NCBI GenBank assembly: GCA_020073265.1 | Contig: JAIQFN010000013.1 | Location: 1 to 64,000 of the forward strand | DNA: 64,000 nt | From: Terriglobia bacterium | GTDB taxonomy: Bacteria > Acidobacteriota > Terriglobia > Bryobacterales > Bryobacteraceae | Reading direction: 5' to 3' | Part shown: positions 19,505-27,649 of the stretch, in pieces | Position numbering within the stretch: the first letter of the stretch is position 1 | Layout of the letters: the number at the start of each line of letters is the position of its first letter | Translations under genes and position numbers: made by a program | The notes under the pieces: model-generated | The model's database searches: none | What the model was told of the DNA's origin: nothing | What the model saw: the letters and a program-made list of their open reading frames with translations, nothing else

Positions 19505-20272
19505 ATGGTCGATATCCATTGCCACATCCTGCCCGGGCTGGACGACGGCGCCAAGTCGCTCGAGGAGTCCGTCGCCATGGTGAAGCTGGCGAGCGCGGCG
19601 GGAACCACCGACATCGTGGCCACTCCGCACGCCAACCATCACTACAACTTCGATCCGGAACGCATCGCCGCCAAGATCCGGGAGCTCCAGCAGGCCACCA
19701 ATCACCTGGTCAACCTCCACACCGGCTGCGACTTTCACTTGAGCGCCACCAATATCGACGATGCCCTGTCCCATCCCGCCAAGTACACCATCAACCATCG
19801 CGTGTACCTTCTGGTGGAATTTTCGGACTTCGTGATTCCTCCCAGCACCGACGAAATTCTCGGCCGCTTGCGCGCGGCCGGCATGGTTCCGATCATCACG
19901 CATCCGGAGCGAAACCGCCTGTTGCACGACCGCGCGGATCAAATCGCAACCTGGGTCGAAAACGACTGCCGGGTCCAGGTCACAGCTCAGTCTTTCCTGG
20001 GGCGTTTCGGAAAAGCAGCCAAAACCTTCTCCGACACGCTCATGAGAAATGGGCTGATCCACTTTGTCGCAAGCGACGGACACGATCCCGAGCGGCGGCC
20101 GCCGGTTCTGTCGGAAGCACGTCAATACATCGCTAAGAACTACGGCGAGGCTCGAGCCGAAGCTTTGTTCGTCACCAACCCGCGCGCCACTCTGACCGGA
20201 GAGACCATCGAGCCGTTCGAACCGCAGCCCCGCAAGAGGAAATGGTACGAGCTGGGGAGGAATCCTTTCTAG
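19505..20272 (+). CDS. CpsB/YwqE-type tyrosine-protein phosphatase (PHP domain)
   Basis: This 255-aa protein has the metal-binding motifs of PHP phosphatases from capsule loci: VDIHCHILPGLDDGAKS at the N-terminus, VATPHANHHYN near residue 40, ITHPERNRLL and VASDGHDPERRPP. CpsB enzymes use a Mn cluster to dephosphorylate the tyrosine-rich tails of BY-kinases that control Wzy-dependent polysaccharide export. The next gene, 34 nt downstream, is an O-antigen-ligase-like polymerase/ligase, which fits that role. The kinase/co-polymerase itself is not in the window. Its C-terminal residues (PRKRKWYELGRNPF) are basic and possibly membrane-associated. Confidence 0.88.
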   Translation: MVDIHCHILPGLDDGAKSLEESVAMVKLASAAGTTDIVATPHANHHYNFDPERIAAKIRELQQATNHLVNLHTGCDFHLSATNIDDALSHPAKYTINHRVYLLVEFSDFVIPPSTDEILGRLRAAGMVPIITHPERNRLLHDRADQIATWVENDCRVQVTAQSFLGRFGKAAKTFSDTLMRNGLIHFVASDGHDPERRPPVLSEARQYIAKNYGEARAEALFVTNPRATLTGETIEPFEPQPRKRKWYELGRNPF

Positions 20273-20306: not shown

Positions 20307-22907
20307 ATGTCCACCCCTAGGTCGCGGCGCTCCTACTTAGGTTTGCTCGCGATCCTGATCGCCTTCGCGGAGTACTCGCAGGCGGGCGTGCTGCAACTGA
20401 ATTGGAACATCTGCCTGGTGAGCTTGGGGATGCTGTCCGCCGTCTATTGGCTGCGTGTTCCCGACGCTGAACTCGCCCCGCCGCTGGATCCATGGCTGGG
20501 CTGGACGGCCTTGCTCCTTCCACTGTACGTCGCAATCCAACTGGTTCCCTTGCCCGTGCCGGTGCTGGGAGTCCTGAGTCCGGCGCGCGCCGAGCTGCTC
20601 GACAAACTGGCGCACGTCGCCTCGCCGGCCAGCTTTGCTCCCCTCAGCATCGCGCCCGCCACAACCAGCGTGTATCTCCTGCGGATCGCCGCTTACACAC
20701 TCGTATTCTTGCTGGTCCGCGAGCTGGCCTGGCATGCGCGCAAGCGCAACTCCATGGCGGCTGTGATCCCGTTGATCGGCATCGCTGCCATCGAAGCGGC
20801 GCTCGGGCTGGCGCAGAGTGTCAACGGAGAAGAATCCGCGCACGGTACCTACGGCAACAAGAATCACTTCGCCGGTTTGCTCGAAATGGTCCTGCCGCTG
20901 GCGGTGGTCTTCGGACTCGCGCTGGTCATCGGCCGGCGCTCTCGCTCCAGCCCGTCCACCTCGCGCGCGCTCTCAGGCGGTGCGGTTCTGGCGCTCGCGG
21001 CGATCATCGTTGGAGGACTGGTGGCCTCGATCTCCAAGATGGGCTACGTTGCCGGGATCTCGGGACTCGCGGTGATGGGCGCACTGGCGCTTTGGACTTC
21101 GCTCCAAGGCTGGCGCAGATGGCTCGCGGCGGCCGCTCTGGTGGTCCTGTTCGTGTTCGGCCTGGTGTTCCTGCCGTCCGACGAGTTGATGCGGGCCTTT
21201 TCCGCTCTGGCCTCGGATGAATGGGCCACTGGCGAGGGGCGCTTTCCGATCTTCCTCAACGCGCTGGGCCTGATTCGTTCCTACTGGCTGGTTGGCTGCG
21301 GCCTCGGCAATTTCCAAACCGGCTTCCTCAAGTTCCAGACCGCCATCATCGACCGCGACTTCACCTTCGCGCACAACGACTATCTGCAACTGGCTTCTGA
21401 AATCGGCCTGGTTGGCTTCGTGATCGTCATGACCTTGATGCTCGGGGTCTTCTGGAAGGCCTTCGCGGCGGCCACCCGCGATCAAGATCGCCTGGCGCGC
21501 TTGCTCGGCCTGGGATGCGCCGGGGCTCTTGCGGCCATCGCGGTGCATAGCCTGGTGGATTTCAACACTTACATCCCCGCCAATGCGATGGTGCTGGCCT
21601 GGATCTCCGGAATCGCCGCCTCGCTTCCCTCTCGGAACAAGTCCACCGCTCACCGCGCCGTCTTGTTCCGCAGGTTCGCACTGGTCCTAAGCGTGGCGCT
21701 GGTGATCTATGGCGCTGCGTGGATCGTATTCGGCACGTCCTATCGCAGCGACCCCACGGCGGAAAGGCTATTCTGCCGCCTCGGCATCTGCGACACCGAT
21801 GCGGTGCTCGACAAGCAAGTGGCCAGCCACAATGGAAACGTGGCCGCGCTGCCTGCCGGCGACCTGGTTGCAGCGCTCCGAAGAGATCCCGCCTCACCGG
21901 CCCGCTGGTGCGACCTCGCCGAGTCGTTCGCCCAGCAGGGACAGACGGAACGTTCCCGCTACTGTTTCGCAAATGCGCTGGAGTTGGGACCCTACGTTCC
22001 CATGGTCCTGATGAGAGCCTCGCATTTCTTCTTCGACCAGCGTGAGCAACAGCGGGCACTCGAAGAAAACGCGCGCGTGCTGGCGAAGACGCCTACCTAT
22101 GACGCACTTATTTTTGACTGGTACCGAGAGAAGAACATTCCCCTCGCGGAGGTCTTGTCGCACGGTCTCGCGGGCGACCGCCGCGCCTCGCAGGCCTATC
22201 TCCGCTACTGGATCTCTCTTCAGAACATGGACAACGCCTCAGCGGTGTGGGATTGGATGCTCTCGCGCTCCTACGCCGACGACCAGGTCGCGCGGAGCTA
22301 CGTCAATTTCGTCTTCAACGCTCGGAAGTACGAAGCCGCGGCACTGGCCTGGGCTCACTACCTGGGCGAGCACCGCAACGGGTATCTGGAATCCGACTTT
22401 CTCTATAACGGCGACTTCGAGTCCGAACCGGAGGGAATGCCGTTCGACTGGCGCGTGGAGGGCTTGGGCGACAAGGTCGAGGCCGCGCGTGATTCAAAGA
22501 TCGCGCACACCGGCACGCACTCCGTGCGTATTCACTTCACCGGCAATGACAACGTCAACTACGGCCACACATCCGAAACCACCTTCGTGACTCCAGGCGC
22601 CTATCGCTTCGAAGCTTTCGTGCGGACCGAGGGAATCACCACCGACGAGGGGATTGGCTTCGAGATCTCATCGGATGTCCCTCGGCTGGACCTGAAGACC
22701 GCGAAACTTCTCGGCACCAACGACTGGACAAAGATCGAGCTCCCGGTCACGGTTCCGCCCGGCGCGCGGCTCCTGGTAGTCCGGGTGATCCGCCAGCCAT
22801 CGCTGAAATTCGACAGCCTGATCGCCGGCACCGCCTGGATCGACTCGGTCCGTCTGGTGCGGATGGACGAGCGTCCTCAACGTCAGCAGGAAAAAGAAAA
22901 GCGCTGA
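20307..22907 (+). CDS. O-antigen ligase/polymerase family protein with a C-terminal carbohydrate-binding-like module
   Basis: This 866-aa protein has roughly a dozen predicted membrane helices over residues 1-480. The Wzy_C/WaaL region contains AHGTYGNKNHFAGLLEM, GRFPIFLNALGLIRS, GLGNFQTGF and the periplasmic FAHNDYLQLASEIGLVG, which is highly characteristic. A TPR-like helical part (about 520-690) is followed by a beta-sandwich. It begins YNGDFESEPEGMPFDWRVEG and ends with a WIDSVRLVR strand, as in CBM4/9-type modules. It likely polymerises or ligates polysaccharide on the periplasmic side, the module perhaps holding the glycan. It is 34 nt after cpsB. A shorter start is possible but this ATG fits the first helix. 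Confidence 0.88.
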   Translation: MSTPRSRRSYLGLLAILIAFAEYSQAGVLQLNWNICLVSLGMLSAVYWLRVPDAELAPPLDPWLGWTALLLPLYVAIQLVPLPVPVLGVLSPARAELLDKLAHVASPASFAPLSIAPATTSVYLLRIAAYTLVFLLVRELAWHARKRNSMAAVIPLIGIAAIEAALGLAQSVNGEESAHGTYGNKNHFAGLLEMVLPLAVVFGLALVIGRRSRSSPSTSRALSGGAVLALAAIIVGGLVASISKMGYVAGISGLAVMGALALWTSLQGWRRWLAAAALVVLFVFGLVFLPSDELMRAFSALASDEWATGEGRFPIFLNALGLIRSYWLVGCGLGNFQTGFLKFQTAIIDRDFTFAHNDYLQLASEIGLVGFVIVMTLMLGVFWKAFAAATRDQDRLARLLGLGCAGALAAIAVHSLVDFNTYIPANAMVLAWISGIAASLPSRNKSTAHRAVLFRRFALVLSVALVIYGAAWIVFGTSYRSDPTAERLFCRLGICDTDAVLDKQVASHNGNVAALPAGDLVAALRRDPASPARWCDLAESFAQQGQTERSRYCFANALELGPYVPMVLMRASHFFFDQREQQRALEENARVLAKTPTYDALIFDWYREKNIPLAEVLSHGLAGDRRASQAYLRYWISLQNMDNASAVWDWMLSRSYADDQVARSYVNFVFNARKYEAAALAWAHYLGEHRNGYLESDFLYNGDFESEPEGMPFDWRVEGLGDKVEAARDSKIAHTGTHSVRIHFTGNDNVNYGHTSETTFVTPGAYRFEAFVRTEGITTDEGIGFEISSDVPRLDLKTAKLLGTNDWTKIELPVTVPPGARLLVVRVIRQPSLKFDSLIAGTAWIDSVRLVRMDERPQRQQEKEKR

Positions 22908-22932
22908 TCAGCGGGTCTGCCCCTTCAGTGAC

Positions 22933-23553
22933 TCAGATGTTCGACGCCGAGCAGCGTCCATCCTTGGTGCATTGCTGAGTCGGCCCGCAGCACACCATAT
23001 TGCCGCAGCAGTGTTGACTCGCACTGCAACCCGGGCCGGTATTGCCACAGCAAGAACCACCGGACGGCGAACAATACGTCGAGGTCCCGGTCCCGCAGCA
23101 CTGTTGCCCGGCGTTGCACGACCCGGTGCCGCAACAGAGCTTGCCGGCAGCGATGCAGTACGCCGAGGCGCCGCTACCACAGCAGGTTTGGCCCGCGTTG
23201 CAGGTAGTGGTACCGCAACAGAATCCGCCGGCAGGCGAACAGATCTTTGATCCGCTCGGACCATTGCAGCAGGTTTGTCCCGCGTTGCACGATGAACTGC
23301 CGCAACACAGCTTGCCCGCGGCTATACAGAACGCCGGACCTCCCACGCCCGGGCAGCACAGTTGGCCCGGCTTGCAGGCCGGCGAACAGGTTGCCGCATT
23401 GGCTCGCTTGATCCCAACCGTGCCAAGAAGGCCCCCGGCTATCAAACCGCCTAGCATCCTCAGCATCCGGCGTCGCGGTATCGGACTGGCAAGGATGCGA
23501 GCGGCGTCATCGACGAGATGGTTCATGTCAGCACGCTGGACCGGCAAGTTCAT
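22933..23553 (-). CDS. Tat-exported cysteine-rich repeat protein
   Basis: This is a 206-aa protein. Residues about 26-53 carry a Tat-like signal (SPIPRRRMLRMLGG, a glycine-rich hydrophobic core, then KRANA). The mature part of about 153 residues has 32 cysteines, roughly one in five. It is built from repeats of the form CC-G-x-x-x-C-NAGQ-x-CC-G-x(4-6)-Y/I-C-x(3)-G-x-x-CCG; SCNAGQTCC-type units recur at least three times. Its spacing of CC pairs resembles granulin-like disulfide ladders. No enzyme domain is present. Folded export through Tat implies that disulfides or a bound metal may be formed before or during export. The neighbour at 23658 encodes a MauE/thioredoxin protein, a natural maturation partner. 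ATG 23526 is an alternative start. Confidence 0.75.
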   Translation of the reverse strand: MNLPVQRADMNHLVDDAARILASPIPRRRMLRMLGGLIAGGLLGTVGIKRANAATCSPACKPGQLCCPGVGGPAFCIAAGKLCCGSSSCNAGQTCCNGPSGSKICSPAGGFCCGTTTCNAGQTCCGSGASAYCIAAGKLCCGTGSCNAGQQCCGTGTSTYCSPSGGSCCGNTGPGCSASQHCCGNMVCCGPTQQCTKDGRCSASNI

Positions 23554-23612
23554 TATAGTCCCAACAGGCCGAAGATCCGGCTACTAATTTACTTTGAATC
23601 AGTACTAGTTTT

Positions 23613-23650
23613 GCCCGTCTTTGTCAGACAAATGTCTGTCATTTTCGGGC
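23613..23650 (-). repeat. Hairpin between the redoxin and cysteine-repeat genes
   Basis: GCCCG (23613-23617) pairs with CGGGC (23646-23650). Inside this, CAGACA (23625-23630) pairs with TGTCTG (23633-23638). There is no U-run on the transcript strand, so a plain intrinsic terminator is unlikely. A processing or mRNA-stability element between two cotranscribed genes, or an attenuator, is possible. Confidence 0.4.
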
Positions 23651-23657
23651 CTAATCT

Positions 23658-25103
23658 CTAGCGCGAGACTGGTCGAATGCCGCCATTGCCGGCCGAAATC
23701 TTGCCCGCCAGCACGAACACTTCCTGGGCGCCCACGCTCACTTCGGAAGCGACGCGGCCGTCCTCATCCAGAAGGACCGCGGATGGCGTCCCGCCGGCGC
23801 CGAACACCTCGCCGGCCCCAAAGTTCGGATCGAGCAGCACGCGCGACCGGAAGCCCTGCTGCTGATTGGACTCGAAAGAACCTCCGGAGATCACCAGCAG
23901 GTCCGGCGCACCCGGCGCGCGATGGCGCTCCCAGTCCTTCACCTCGGCGAGCATCTGCTGGCAGAATCCGCAGGCAGGGCTCCAGAACAGGAGCAGCGTA
24001 CGGCTACCTCGGACCGTGGCCAGGTCCATGGTCTTGCCGGTGAGATCGGCCAGCTTGAGCGATGGCACCGGATCTCCCTTCTTCACCGGCGGCGGCAAAG
24101 TAGCTCGACCGACCAGCGAACGAATGGCGTCGGCGCCTTCAGCCAGCGAGCTTGCGATCAAACCTTCTCTGAGGAGTACCGCGGTTGGTGAACCGGTCAC
24201 CAAATAGGCCTGGGCGGTCTCGCGGTCTTTCTGAAGCAGCATACTTCTGAGTTCGAGTTTCGCGATCTTGGCGCGATTTTCCTCTGCCGTGCCGCGGCTG
24301 ATCGGAACGATCAACAAGCGGTCGGCATACTCGCGCTGCCATTGCGCCACATCGGGCAACAGCGCATTGCAAAGGCTGCAAGCCGGCTCGCCGAACACCA
24401 GTAGAATGGGCTTGGCTTTCTCGCGCAGCATCTCCAGCGTCACGCTGCCGCCGTCCAGCGCCTGCAAGCTGAACGCCGGCGCGGCGCTGTTCACCACGAG
24501 GCCCGCGGGCGGTGCTTCGGCGCTCGATCCTAGCTTGCCCTCCAGAGCTTCCATGCGCAGCATGAGGCGTCCGTTCTGGCGCAGCACATGGACGGAGAAC
24601 CAAACCTGCGCTGCCGCGAGCGCCGCGAAGCACAGCACCGCGGCTTCAAAGCGGTCGAGTCCACCCAACCACGCCAGCGCGTTCGCGTCTGCTTGCCGCG
24701 GCCCCTGCCACATTACGAAGGCGGCCAGGCTCAGAAGAGCGCCATTCCGGACCAGCGTCTTCCAGCCGATGCCTCCGGAGTGCAGTTGACCGAAGCAGTG
24801 ACAATCCGGACGGCGGCCCAGAGCCAGATTCACGCTGATGGCGGCGGTAAAAGCCACCAGCATCGCCAGCAGGCCAGCGGCTCCCCACCAGGCTAAGCTG
24901 GCAGGAATCAGCGCCGCGACGCAGGCCAGTTCAAACAGCGGCAGAAGCAAGGCCACCGGCGGCCCCAGGAATGCCGGCAACCCAAAATCCACCACCGCTT
25001 TCCTGGATCCGGCCCGATCCGCCATCTTGGCGACTCCTGAGACGGCGAAGACCGCAGCCAGCAGCAGCCGCGCGATCACCAGGACAGCAAGCATAGCAAC
25101 CAC
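23658..25103 (-). CDS. MauE/DoxX-like membrane protein fused to two thioredoxin-like domains
   Basis: This is a 481-aa protein. Residues 1-145 form four to five membrane helices of the MauE/DoxX type with a Cys-His-Cys at 101-103 (DCHCFGQL), as in MauE and VKOR-like electron-transfer proteins. A further helix (about 152-172) leads to two periplasmic redoxin domains. The first has EPACSLC (Cys242/Cys245) with its cis-Pro in TGSPTAVL. The second has SPACGFC (Cys378/Cys381) with GGTPSAVL. MauE and MauD together mature the disulfide-rich small subunit of methylamine dehydrogenase. Here both functions are fused, and the gene just downstream encodes a 32-cysteine Tat substrate. A role in forming or isomerising its disulfides is the natural inference. 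Confidence 0.85.
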   Translation of the reverse strand: MVAMLAVLVIARLLLAAVFAVSGVAKMADRAGSRKAVVDFGLPAFLGPPVALLLPLFELACVAALIPASLAWWGAAGLLAMLVAFTAAISVNLALGRRPDCHCFGQLHSGGIGWKTLVRNGALLSLAAFVMWQGPRQADANALAWLGGLDRFEAAVLCFAALAAAQVWFSVHVLRQNGRLMLRMEALEGKLGSSAEAPPAGLVVNSAAPAFSLQALDGGSVTLEMLREKAKPILLVFGEPACSLCNALLPDVAQWQREYADRLLIVPISRGTAEENRAKIAKLELRSMLLQKDRETAQAYLVTGSPTAVLLREGLIASSLAEGADAIRSLVGRATLPPPVKKGDPVPSLKLADLTGKTMDLATVRGSRTLLLFWSPACGFCQQMLAEVKDWERHRAPGAPDLLVISGGSFESNQQQGFRSRVLLDPNFGAGEVFGAGGTPSAVLLDEDGRVASEVSVGAQEVFVLAGKISAGNGGIRPVSR

Positions 25104-25171
25104 ATTCTAACCCAGCCGGCCTTTCGCACCGCCGGTTCGGAGGCTGGAGTTCATGTCGCCGCGTACTACTC

Positions 25172-25196
25172 GGTACTAAAGATGTACGGCCGTACC
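25172..25196. repeat. Palindrome in the divergent intergenic region
   Basis: GTACGGCCGTAC (25184-25195) is a perfect 12-bp palindrome. GGTAC (25172-25176) can pair with GTACC (25192-25196) as an alternative fold. It lies between the leftward redoxin gene and the rightward small gene at 25269, and is a candidate operator for either. Confidence 0.35.
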
Positions 25197-25268
25197 AGCC
25201 ACTGGAGCAGAACTTGTCAGGACTAAAGTCACTCACGCATCGCGAGCCCCGGATGTTATGTTTCTTGC

Positions 25269-25502
25269 GTGGCACTGGCTTCCGTAACGCTCGAGTATGG
25301 CGGAAAAGTCTACACTTTCGCCGAGGATGATCAAGCGGTGCTGAAGGGCAGACTCTCTTGCGATTGCAGGAAGTCGGATCTCATTCGCGCAGCGTGCGAT
25401 CCCCAGTTCCCAATACTGGGATGCGGCGCCCGCATCACTGTCGTGTCGGTAGTGGATGCCGAACCGGTGATCAAAAAGCCGGCCGGCCGCGCGGGCGCTT
25501 AG
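25269..25502 (+). CDS. Small hypothetical protein with four cysteines
   Basis: The GTG start at 25269 gives a 77-aa soluble protein with a strand-rich beginning (SVTLEYGGKVYTFAEDD). Its cysteine-containing centre has RLSCDCRKSD, AACDPQ and LGCGARITVVSVV. The four Cys could bind metal or form disulfides. I do not recognise a family. The ribosome binding site is weak. The composition, orderly sequence and position ahead of the sensor kinase support a real gene only moderately. Confidence 0.45.
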   Translation: MALASVTLEYGGKVYTFAEDDQAVLKGRLSCDCRKSDLIRAACDPQFPILGCGARITVVSVVDAEPVIKKPAGRAGA

Positions 25503-25587: not shown

Positions 25588-26991
25588 ATGGATCCGAAGA
25601 ACCAGTTGCGGGATCGCGAGCGCCTGCTGGTGCTGCTCGGGTGTAGTGCGGCGGCCGCCGCGCTCCTGGCTTGCGAGCGCTATCTGGCTTTCGGCGAGCT
25701 TCTGGGCCCGCTCTTCATGATTCCCCTGCTGGTAGCCGCGGCCTTCGTGCCCCGCTGGGCGATCTTCATACTCGCAAACCTGCTGGCCGTTGCGCGCGAA
25801 GCCTGGGAGCCGGACGCCTGGGCTGGAAACGCGCCCGCCCGGCTCAGTTTGAGCATGCTCGCCTTCAGCGGCGGAGCGTTGTTCGCCGGCGAGATGTTTC
25901 GGAATCGGCGGCTCGCCATGGCCCTGGTTCGCAAGACTCAGGAAGAAGCGCGCACCCGCGCCGACGCCGAGCGAGAATTACGTGCGTTGATCGAGGGTAG
26001 CCCATCCGCGATTCTCACCGTGAACAGCCAGGGACAAATCGCGATGGCTAATGAGGCGGCCCACCACCTGCTGGGATTCGAGGGCTTCTCGCTCGAAGGC
26101 GAGCCGGTGGAACGATACATACCGGTGCTGGCGAAACTGGTGCAGTCTAAGACGACCTTGCCCCGGCTGCGCACCATGATCGAGTCCCGCGGGCGCCGCC
26201 GTAATGGCCAATCGTGTTATTTGCAATTTTGGGTTTCCTCCTACGAGGTCGCCTCCGGCCCGCAGTTGGCGGCCATCGTCTCCGACGCCACCGATCAGCT
26301 TCGCGACCGGGAGGAAGCCGGGCTGCGCCAGCTGCTCAGCAGCTCCAAGATCATCGCCGGCGCGGTCTCCCACGAGATCCGCAATTTGACCGGCGCCGCC
26401 TCCGTGCTGCACCACAACCTGAGCCACCTGGACGGGATCGCCGACAACGCGGACTTCCAGGCCTTGGGCAAGGTGATCGAGAGCACTCTCAAGCTATCCT
26501 CCGAAGATGTGGAAGCGGATCCGGAGGAAGCGCTGGAGGGCGCCGACGTCAGCGAGGTGCTGGAGGAATTACGCTTGATCGTAACGCAGGCCTTCGACGA
26601 GGCCGGCGCGCGCCTGGAATTGGAAGTGCCGGACTCGCTGCCGCGCGTCAGAGCCAATCATTCCGGCCTGCTGCAAGTTTTCATCAACCTGGCTCAGAAC
26701 AGTTGCCGGGCTCTCGAAGGCAGGACCGGAGGGAAATTGCGGATTACTGCTTATGCCCTGGCCGATTCCCTGGTGATCCGGTTCGCCGATAACGGCCCGG
26801 GCATTTCGCCCGAGCAACCCGTCTTTCAGCCTTTTCAGCCCGGCGCAGCCGCCAGCGGCCTGGGGCTGTTCGTATCGCGCGCCTGCCTGCGTACCTTCGG
26901 CGGAGAGCTGCACCACACGCAGCGGCCCGGCGAGTGCTGCTTCATCGTGGAGCTCCCGTCCATCGTCACCGCGGAAGCAACTCGTGCCTGA
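25588..26991 (+). CDS. PAS-domain sensor histidine kinase
   Basis: This is a 467-aa protein. Three to four hydrophobic helices occupy residues about 15-115 without a large periplasmic loop. A coiled linker (RKTQEEARTRADAERELRAL) leads to a PAS domain (LIEGSPSAILTVNSQGQIAMANEAAH). The kinase part has the phospho-acceptor H in AGAVSHEIRNLTGA, an N-box VFINLAQNSCRAL, the G1 box FADNGPGI and a G2 block SGLGLFVSR. The HEIRN (rather than HELR) H-box and the ATPase sequence place it with PAS-linked NtrB-like or LuxR-partner kinases. It overlaps the response regulator gene by 8 nt, so they form a two-component pair. The signal is unknown. Confidence 0.9.
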   Translation: MDPKNQLRDRERLLVLLGCSAAAAALLACERYLAFGELLGPLFMIPLLVAAAFVPRWAIFILANLLAVAREAWEPDAWAGNAPARLSLSMLAFSGGALFAGEMFRNRRLAMALVRKTQEEARTRADAERELRALIEGSPSAILTVNSQGQIAMANEAAHHLLGFEGFSLEGEPVERYIPVLAKLVQSKTTLPRLRTMIESRGRRRNGQSCYLQFWVSSYEVASGPQLAAIVSDATDQLRDREEAGLRQLLSSSKIIAGAVSHEIRNLTGAASVLHHNLSHLDGIADNADFQALGKVIESTLKLSSEDVEADPEEALEGADVSEVLEELRLIVTQAFDEAGARLELEVPDSLPRVRANHSGLLQVFINLAQNSCRALEGRTGGKLRITAYALADSLVIRFADNGPGISPEQPVFQPFQPGAAASGLGLFVSRACLRTFGGELHHTQRPGECCFIVELPSIVTAEATRA

Positions 26992-27649
26992 CAGAATCCG
27001 CATACTCTTGATTGACGATCACGTGCTGGTTCGCGAGGCCATCGCCCGGCTTCTGGCGGCCCAGCCGGACTTTCAGGTAGCCGGCCAGACGGCCACGATC
27101 GAAGAGGCCGTCGACATCATCCAGAGCCAGCCTGTGGACATCGTCCTGCTGGATATCAATCTCGGCTCCGAGCAGGGAGGCGCTTTCCTGGGTTTGGCGC
27201 ACGACTGCGGCTTTCGCGGCCGCATCCTGGTGGTCACAGCCGGTGTCAGCAAGCGCGAAGCAGCCCGGCTCCTGGAAAGAGGTTGTGCCGGAATTTTCCT
27301 CAAGCACGAGCGCCCGACGCTGTTGATCGACCGGATCCGCTCCATCGCACACGGCGAAGTGCCCGTCCCGTTGTCCGTACCGGCAGGGGACCTGGGCCAG
27401 GTGGAAACCGCGGCTGCGCGCTCCTCGTTTACACCGCGCGAAGCCCAGGTGCTGCGGGGAGTTTGCAGCGGCATGCTGAACAAGGAAATCGCTTTTGAAT
27501 TGGGCATATCGGAACCGCTCGTCAAGGCCTTCGTGCAGCAGCTCTTCAACAAGACCGGCGTGCGCAATCGGGCTCAATTGGTGCGGGTCGCGGTGGAACA
27601 ATACTTCGATCAGATCGAGGCGGGCCCGGATGGTCGCGAACCTGTTTAA
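26984..27649 (+). CDS. NarL/LuxR-family response regulator
   Basis: This 221-aa protein has a receiver domain with LLIDDHVLVREAI, the phospho-acceptor in VDIVLLDINLG and the conserved Lys in GIFLKHE. A C-terminal HTH of the LuxR/NarL type (residues about 145-205) has FTPREAQVLRGVCSGMLNKEIAFELGISE, the last part being the recognition region. Its start lies inside the end of the upstream PAS kinase gene (8-nt overlap), so the pair is cotranslated. It should bind DNA as a dimer when phosphorylated. No obvious target operon adjoins it, the next gene being convergent. Confidence 0.9.
   Translation: MPDRIRILLIDDHVLVREAIARLLAAQPDFQVAGQTATIEEAVDIIQSQPVDIVLLDINLGSEQGGAFLGLAHDCGFRGRILVVTAGVSKREAARLLERGCAGIFLKHERPTLLIDRIRSIAHGEVPVPLSVPAGDLGQVETAAARSSFTPREAQVLRGVCSGMLNKEIAFELGISEPLVKAFVQQLFNKTGVRNRAQLVRVAVEQYFDQIEAGPDGREPV

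Follow-up and report, generated by a model that had tools for sequence, protein, structure and literature searches.

A MauE–MauD–redoxin fusion and its cysteine-rich Tat clients: a candidate oxidative-folding pair that recurs across bacterial phyla

The twin-arginine translocation (Tat) pathway carries folded proteins, and the bacterial cytosol is reducing; to our knowledge, how disulfide-rich Tat substrates fold is an open question. MauE and MauD are known to serve MauA in methylamine dehydrogenase systems. As reported in the decRiPPter study, a disulfide-forming role in methylamine dehydrogenase has been a matter of speculation for MauE and the exact function of MauD is called unclear; there mauE, in one case mauD, is already noted in Streptomyces beside a small protein with at least eight cysteines, with a suggested role in precursor modification (PMC7794033). 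Here we describe two adjacent genes in a 64,000-nucleotide stretch of a Terriglobia bacterium genome (contig JAIQFN010000013.1, assembly GCA_020073265.1; the window), one encoding a predicted membrane protein that joins MauE, MauD-like and redoxin parts, the other a cysteine-rich protein with a Tat-type leader, its candidate client. We judge it slightly more probable than an even chance that the two genes form a dedicated oxidative-folding pair for Tat clients, in which the fusion would act as a membrane-bound thiol oxidase/isomerase.

The initial annotation had described two same-strand genes about 100 nt apart, and both open reading frames (ORFs) indeed lie on the minus strand, 104 nt apart with the fusion upstream (Table 1). 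Its description of a MauE part followed by two redoxins, with CHC at residues 101-103 and CxxC at 242-245 and 378-381, was confirmed at all positions, as was that of a Tat-type protein of about 153 mature residues with 32 cysteines in repeats: residues 1-53 contain no cysteine, and all 32 fall in residues 54-206 (153 residues). The 481-residue protein passes the curated cut-off for MauE (PF07291, 96.1 versus 27 bits) and misses that of the MauD equivalog TIGR02661 (70.1 versus 188.6 bits, best stretch 156-330); by profile comparison its middle part is MauD-like rather than MauD, and the whole is a MauE–MauD–redoxin fusion. The NCBIfam ResA model has its best stretch at residues 340-455, within redoxin 2 and under the ResA cut-off. 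The thioredoxin fold and CxxC motif of thiol oxidoreductases are present in the domains, the alignment and the predicted structure (mean pLDDT 90.4), the top 50 of 1222 Foldseek rows for the whole model being thioredoxin- or peroxiredoxin-like chains, in a search that took no separate look at the MauE part. All six redox cysteines (CHC and both CxxC pairs) are conserved in 100% of the rows aligned at those columns in an alignment of 81 fusions, three of them short.

Conservation of the neighbourhood, whose absence the initial annotation had named as refuting its proposal, extends well beyond close relatives in three sets whose counts are not fully independent, since six loci sit in both the named set and the genome sets. 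Among 101 related genomes the client was found in four genomes at six loci, and at every one of these a redoxin is fused to the client, or else a MauE–redoxin fusion or double redoxin lies no more than about 3.5 kb away. Among 399 genomes of the class, searched with a profile of 12 cysteine-rich proteins, 16 genomes yielded 17 client loci, and at 16 of these a MauE/MauD-type redoxin partner is adjacent or fused; the partner in class members is often without MauE (one anchor helix plus two redoxins), and that of genome G214 is MauE plus one redoxin. An alignment of six fusions, including one with a single redoxin, served to scan a named collection, from which the best 80 of 128 relatives were kept, and cysteine-dense ORFs were defined by at least 9 cysteines in 60 residues together with R/K/Q-R and a hydrophobic stretch. 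Such an ORF with a twin-arginine (RR) leader lies within 1.5 kb at 24 of the 80 fusion loci, a lower bound because 15 of the 56 unmatched loci have less than 1.5 kb of sequence on one side. The detector gave 26 matches in 221 kb near the fusions versus 3 in 480 kb beyond 2.5 kb, an approximately 19-fold difference, and among the three far matches one (L047) is a true client within the same gene run. Twenty of the 24 paired clients lie within 260 bp of the fusion and 22 on the same strand, and one locus (L103) belongs to another, PqqD-linked type. Record titles assign the paired loci to Acidobacteriota, Chloroflexota, Actinomycetota and Eremiobacterota, to a Nitrospira bin and to an alphaproteobacterial bin; the fusion also matched 18 records of a plasmid collection, four of which were examined. 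Judged by gene neighbourhood, the pairing is not a matter of chance and recurs across several phyla.

The client itself contains ten CC pairs and three CCx4Cx5CC copies in its mature part, with the RR at residues 27-28. Its true start is probably at 23526, because relatives begin near the equivalent of Met10. The Tat signal and cleavage site were assigned by eye rather than by a signal-peptide program, and the RR signal, the hydrophobic stretch and the presence of TatC in the host genome (205 bits) predict export. Searches of Pfam and NCBIfam gave no family at E <= 1 and hence no assignment to the granulin family, and a sequence search of the PDB gave two matches only (E 0.29 and 0.37). In the AlphaFold model (mean pLDDT 76.7 overall) the mature part consists of short beta-hairpins, with pLDDT per ten-residue block of 88-95 over model residues 51-140 and 48-84 beyond. 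Of the 18 Foldseek matches at E <= 10, one was granulin A (E 4.9) and none reached E <= 0.001, and the sole VIA row was zebrafish granulin AaE (6cku; Z 4.9, 53/56 residues, rmsd 3.3). We propose that the client is the precursor of a disulfide-laddered protein with up to 16 disulfides in a granulin-like beta-hairpin stack.

The clients are diverse, which does not bear out the initial proposal of a single new class of secreted cysteine-repeat protein: the set includes group XII-type phospholipase A2 domains (L040, L062) and Stig1 repeats (L077, L071), and the client at L048 has granulin-like repeats and no family match. What the clients have in common, on inspection of their sequences, is cysteine richness and a leader of the type hydrophobic-D-D/E...RR. 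The leader detector returned 65 ORFs, 46 with the motif and some spurious (antisense or overlapping frames), from which 37 leaders were picked by hand; the pattern (hydrophobic, D/E/N, a mostly acidic third position, hydrophobic) occurs in 36 of these 37, a figure that is not an unbiased rate and has no background set of Tat leaders beside it. In 27 leaders D precedes the first R by a distance of 12, and in seven by 13. The leader of Paracoccus MauA, FDDMVEKLSRRVAGQTSRR, is one of the 37 and follows the same pattern with a D-to-RR distance of 16, so that the analogy with the Mau system is closer than first claimed; the methylamine dehydrogenase subunits (PF02975, PF06433) had no match in the host genome, in a search run without a positive control. 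A Caballeronia plasmid carries a double redoxin followed by a 14-cysteine protein with FDEWTKAVARRPSRR. A leader search of the host genome scored well for the client alone, with five others at E 0.7-1.4 and no second clear copy, and a pattern scan of a viral collection gave 37 matches, with no relative among them.

Several further loci illustrate the range of such proteins. In Ktedonobacter racemifer (L072, 5689-6791) three consecutive short cysteine-rich proteins, all with the leader motif, adjoin the fusion gene, and at L045 (4586-5972) the protein after the double redoxin is of Tat type and 85 residues long; it has a similar leader but, in place of a cysteine ladder, a twin CX3C pattern. 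A different client type is seen in Acidobacteria at L104 (1-3935) and L103 (9381-10004), where Tat-type proteins with 7-12 cysteines and, by eye, a PqqD-like N-terminal part are encoded at distances of 0.95 to 6 kb from a MauE–redoxin fusion. A protein of 240-245 residues is encoded between the client and redoxin genes at L038 (944-1666) and L039 (8473-9210); that of L038 has no Pfam match at E <= 0.01. Motifs near the C terminus of this protein look, by eye, reminiscent of a kinase fold.

The nature of the clients also bears on the suggestion that the cysteine protein is metal-binding (metallothionein-like) or a modified product resembling a ribosomally synthesised and post-translationally modified peptide (RiPP), with the redoxins protecting or modifying its thiols. 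Clusters with mauE/mauD and precursors of at least eight cysteines were listed as candidate RiPPs by decRiPPter (PMC7794033), and in a Solibacteraceae genome PqqD and radical SAM/SPASM genes stand directly before a cysteine-rich client (L039, 6366-7903). The radical SAM enzyme was, however, noticed at this one locus, without a systematic search; moreover, the confident hairpin model over model residues 51-140, the even number of cysteines, and the phospholipase A2 and Stig1 domains of other clients speak against it, and we regard a metal-binding or RiPP-like product as very improbable.

Another key aspect is how faithfully fusion and client stay together. On a FastTree phylogeny of 79 fusions, with the incomplete rows L052 and L113 left out and with L047, whose client lies at 3.4 kb, and L070, whose ORF has no leader, added by hand for the tree alone, the label 'paired' changes 11 times versus 21.3 in shuffles, and branches with local support of 95 or more require a minimum of 6 changes. 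One clade of 28 Acidobacteria rows has no paired member, so the fusion would also work without an adjacent client. Among 16 genomes with an unpaired fusion, from Thermomicrobiales and other Chloroflexota, eight hold Stig1-like cysteine proteins elsewhere (19 matches); 13 of these matches were inspected, and seven, in five genomes, clearly carry the leader motif. Several Thermomicrobiales genomes thus hold same-leader cysteine proteins beyond the sequence examined on either side of the fusion. Because such leader-bearing proteins occur elsewhere in these genomes, and because of the unpaired clade, the fusion is, on phylogenetic grounds, a general machine, and adjacent clients have joined it or been kept beside it several times. 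The idea of a dedicated pathway put forward in the initial annotation accordingly stands as far as the conserved pairing goes, and not in the sense that every fusion is dedicated to a neighbouring client. Within the 28-row clade, the fusion appears by eye in a housekeeping run of Der-like GTPase, Tgt-like and YajC/SecD-like proteins at L081, L087, L090, L093, L096 and L097, and at the last five of these it lies between the GTPase gene and the tgt/yajC/secD-like genes, adjoining parts of the Sec translocon.

Central to the mechanism is the side of the membrane on which the redoxins reside. On the membrane side that comprises loops 1-2 and 3-4 and the flank following transmembrane helix (TM) 5, lysine and arginine average 11.1 versus 1.2 on the opposite side, with more in 79 of 79 fusions, and by helix count in the predicted model the CHC loop (TM3-TM4) and the redoxins (after TM5) share one side. 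By the positive-inside rule, both are probably cytosolic, and client folding may then precede export. In two genomes from one genus of the host's class (L156, L042) a redoxin without TM helices forms the N-terminal part of a frame that continues into a Tat leader and cysteine domain, and at the L156 junction the 35 codons that precede the RR include no start codon; in two closely related Streptomyces plasmids a single ORF comprises MauE, redoxin, RR, hydrophobic stretch and cysteine domain. In both fusion lineages the redoxin thus sits on that side of the Tat signal where the arginines are, which together with the lysine and arginine distribution favours oxidation before export.

The principal rival keeps the same partnership and places the redoxins outside the cytoplasm, so that the client would be oxidised after Tat export. 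All of the pairing evidence fits this arrangement equally well, the top Foldseek rows of the whole fusion model are ResA/TlpA-type thioredoxin folds, and MauD, TlpA and ResA are described as acting outside the membrane. The charge distribution in all 79 fusions, which recurs by eye in Paracoccus MauE and MauD, points the other way, as do the absence of lysine and arginine ahead of the TM helix in the listed double-redoxin forms and the two lineages with a redoxin N-terminal to the Tat signal; we therefore consider oxidation after export unlikely, although it deserves to be taken seriously.

The direction of the reaction must also be considered, as the redoxins might instead reduce or shield client thiols in a CcmG/ResA-like or holdase-like manner, for export competence or isomerisation, oxidation being left to another enzyme or to oxygen. 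Redoxin 2 is ResA/TlpA-like, and two redoxin domains could include an isomerase. Set against this, DsbB and VKOR, which could supply the oxidase, were not found in the host genome, in a search that did not extend to DsbA-like and other oxidases, and, as PMC7794033 reports, disulfide formation in methylamine dehydrogenase has speculatively been ascribed to MauE; a reducing or shielding role appears improbable. Because DsbB and VKOR were not found, the fusion may be the host's main membrane oxidase.

The genomic setting offers a further alternative, namely that the two genes are functionally unrelated and neighbours merely as members of an exopolysaccharide cluster. A Wzy_C/TPR-CBM gene is the convergent neighbour of the client, its relatives lie near most granulin-like clients, and most loci related to this one lie in exopolysaccharide clusters; the run at L159, for instance, reads PilZ, NusG-like, double redoxin, client, CBM/TPR, Wzy_C, polysaccharide export and Wzz. 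In tblastn searches with the halves of the Wzy_C/TPR protein, 13 of 18 loci from the relatives and the class matched versus 1 of 76 other named loci (distant relatives could escape such a search), yet at these loci clients still adjoin a redoxin; simple co-location was set aside on this result. The lone match, L048, also has a granulin-like client, and among the five unmatched loci of the 18, L041 and L194 are short stretches and L040 has the phospholipase client. Since redoxin and client are moreover fused as single ORFs in two lineages, the absence of any functional link is scarcely credible. That the client is a glycan-bearing or matrix protein in the exopolysaccharide setting is a guess. 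Beyond the pair, on the other strand (25588-27649), lie genes for a PAS/histidine-kinase protein and then, by eye, a response-regulator-like protein, and a similar-looking kinase/regulator pair was seen by eye upstream of the redoxin at L041. A promoter scan of 22850-25300 found none.

Table 1. Features of the fusion–client locus and its neighbours in the window
Feature	Position	Strand	Basis and remarks
MauE–MauD–redoxin fusion, 481 aa	23658..25103	-	GTG start, Met4 alternative; five predicted TM helices, then two thioredoxin-fold domains
MauE domain, residues 6-132, four TM helices	24708..25088	-	PF07291, 96.1 bits (cut-off 27)
CHC motif, residues 101-103	24795-24803	-	TM3-TM4 loop of the MauE domain
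MauD-like anchor helix, residues 151-191, preceding the redoxins	24531..24653	-	helix in predicted model; best TIGR02661 stretch from residue 156
Redoxin 1, residues 204-312	24168..24494	-	PF00578 (AhpC-TSA)
CSLC of redoxin 1, residues 242-245	24369-24380	-	sequence
Redoxin 2, residues 341-452	23748..24083	-	PF08534 (Redoxin)
CGFC of redoxin 2, residues 378-381	23961-23972	-	sequence
Cysteine-rich Tat-type client, 206 aa, 32 Cys	22933..23553	-	sequence; probable start Met10 (23526)
Client leader with VDDAARILASPIPRR as its pre-RR motif, a hydrophobic stretch and a probable cleavage site following ANA53	23395..23553	-	sequence by eye; leader type common to other clients
Three tandem DNA repeats, 79 nt, spacing 84/87 nt, encoding ~28-residue Cys repeats	23072..23321		repeat search
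Wzy_C O-antigen-ligase-like membrane protein with TPR/CBM-like C-terminal half	20307..22907	+	PF04932, 49.8 bits (cut-off 31.7); TPR and CBM_4_9 under cut-off
CpsB/CapC-like capsular polysaccharide protein	19505..20272	+	PF19567, 190 bits

Taken as a working model, the favoured oxidative-folding pair would operate in five steps. The client would be synthesised in the cytosol with the leader hydrophobic-D-D/E-x10/11-RR; the redoxin CxxC centres would introduce and shuffle disulfides at the inner membrane face; electrons would pass via the MauE CHC pair, presumably to quinone; the folded client would exit through Tat, its leader being cleaved; and, in the host lineage, the exported ladder would act together with the neighbouring exopolysaccharide module of Wzy_C ligase and TPR-CBM protein, perhaps as a glycan carrier or a matrix protein. 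Sequence comparison itself shows that the pairing and the redox cysteine pairs are conserved, that the clients have one leader type, that single-ORF fusions exist, that Wzy_C/TPR genes are associated with the locus and that the genome has TatC; oxidation as the reaction, its timing before export, the quinone coupling and the exopolysaccharide role are what we infer from this. More broadly and more tentatively, at somewhat less than even confidence, MauE/MauD-type proteins may constitute a quinone-linked, inward-facing machine that oxidises Tat clients before export and recognises their common leader, methylamine dehydrogenase being one case of a pathway by which many phyla would export disulfide-laddered proteins already folded.

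A number of observations weigh against this picture, at each of its levels. With respect to pairing, 56 of the 80 named fusion loci have no near match, the 28-row Acidobacteria clade is entirely unpaired, and G229, a genome that is 83% complete, holds a close client relative with no redoxin in the stretch read, which reaches about 5 kb to one side and 4 kb to the other. With respect to the client and its leader, the granulin likeness is weak (Z 4.9, no Foldseek match at E <= 0.001), the leaders were selected by hand, and the MauA motif spacing is longer than that of the clients (16 versus 12-13). With respect to topology, the positive-inside rule is a heuristic, aspartate and glutamate in the post-TM5 flank (6.1) exceed lysine and arginine (4.1) and weaken its share, MauD is usually described as periplasmic, and a separate client start could lie at either of two in-frame GTG codons before the RR in L042 or at an in-frame GTG shortly before the RR in the Streptomyces plasmid fusion. 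Finally, the CxxC dipeptides do not decide between oxidase and reductase.

If the model holds, a membrane oxidase working on the cytosolic side with leader-marked clients would answer how disulfide-rich Tat substrates fold, methylamine dehydrogenase maturation would gain a testable mechanism, and a tool for exporting disulfide-rich proteins would come within reach. The pairing also groups many otherwise hard-to-place cysteine-rich exported proteins of Acidobacteriota, Chloroflexota and Actinomycetota.

Comparison with known systems places the pair among several partial counterparts. In the open-licence literature searched, no paper was found on the multi-phylum pairing, the common leader or the inward topology. 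The mau cluster of Paracoccus denitrificans PD1222 (NC_008688) is alike in its MauE with CxC, its MauD redoxin with one anchor helix, the adjacency of the genes and its cysteine-rich client MauA with an FDD...SRR leader; it differs in that MauE and MauD are separate, there is one redoxin, the client is an enzyme, and the D-to-RR distance is 16 rather than 12-13. The decRiPPter clusters contain proposed RiPP precursors of Streptomyces, and in the portions available of that source a Tat leader, other phyla, large clients and topology are not mentioned. Zebrafish granulin AaE (6cku) has short beta-hairpins with CC pairs, as does the predicted client, which differs in being bacterial, in its Tat leader and in its lack of a Pfam match at E <= 1. 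DsbA–DsbB and VKOR–thioredoxin likewise combine a thioredoxin-fold donor with a quinone-linked membrane partner of four TM helices, whereas the fusion uses another membrane family (MauE/DoxX), probably holds its redoxins on the cytosolic side, and would serve Tat clients.

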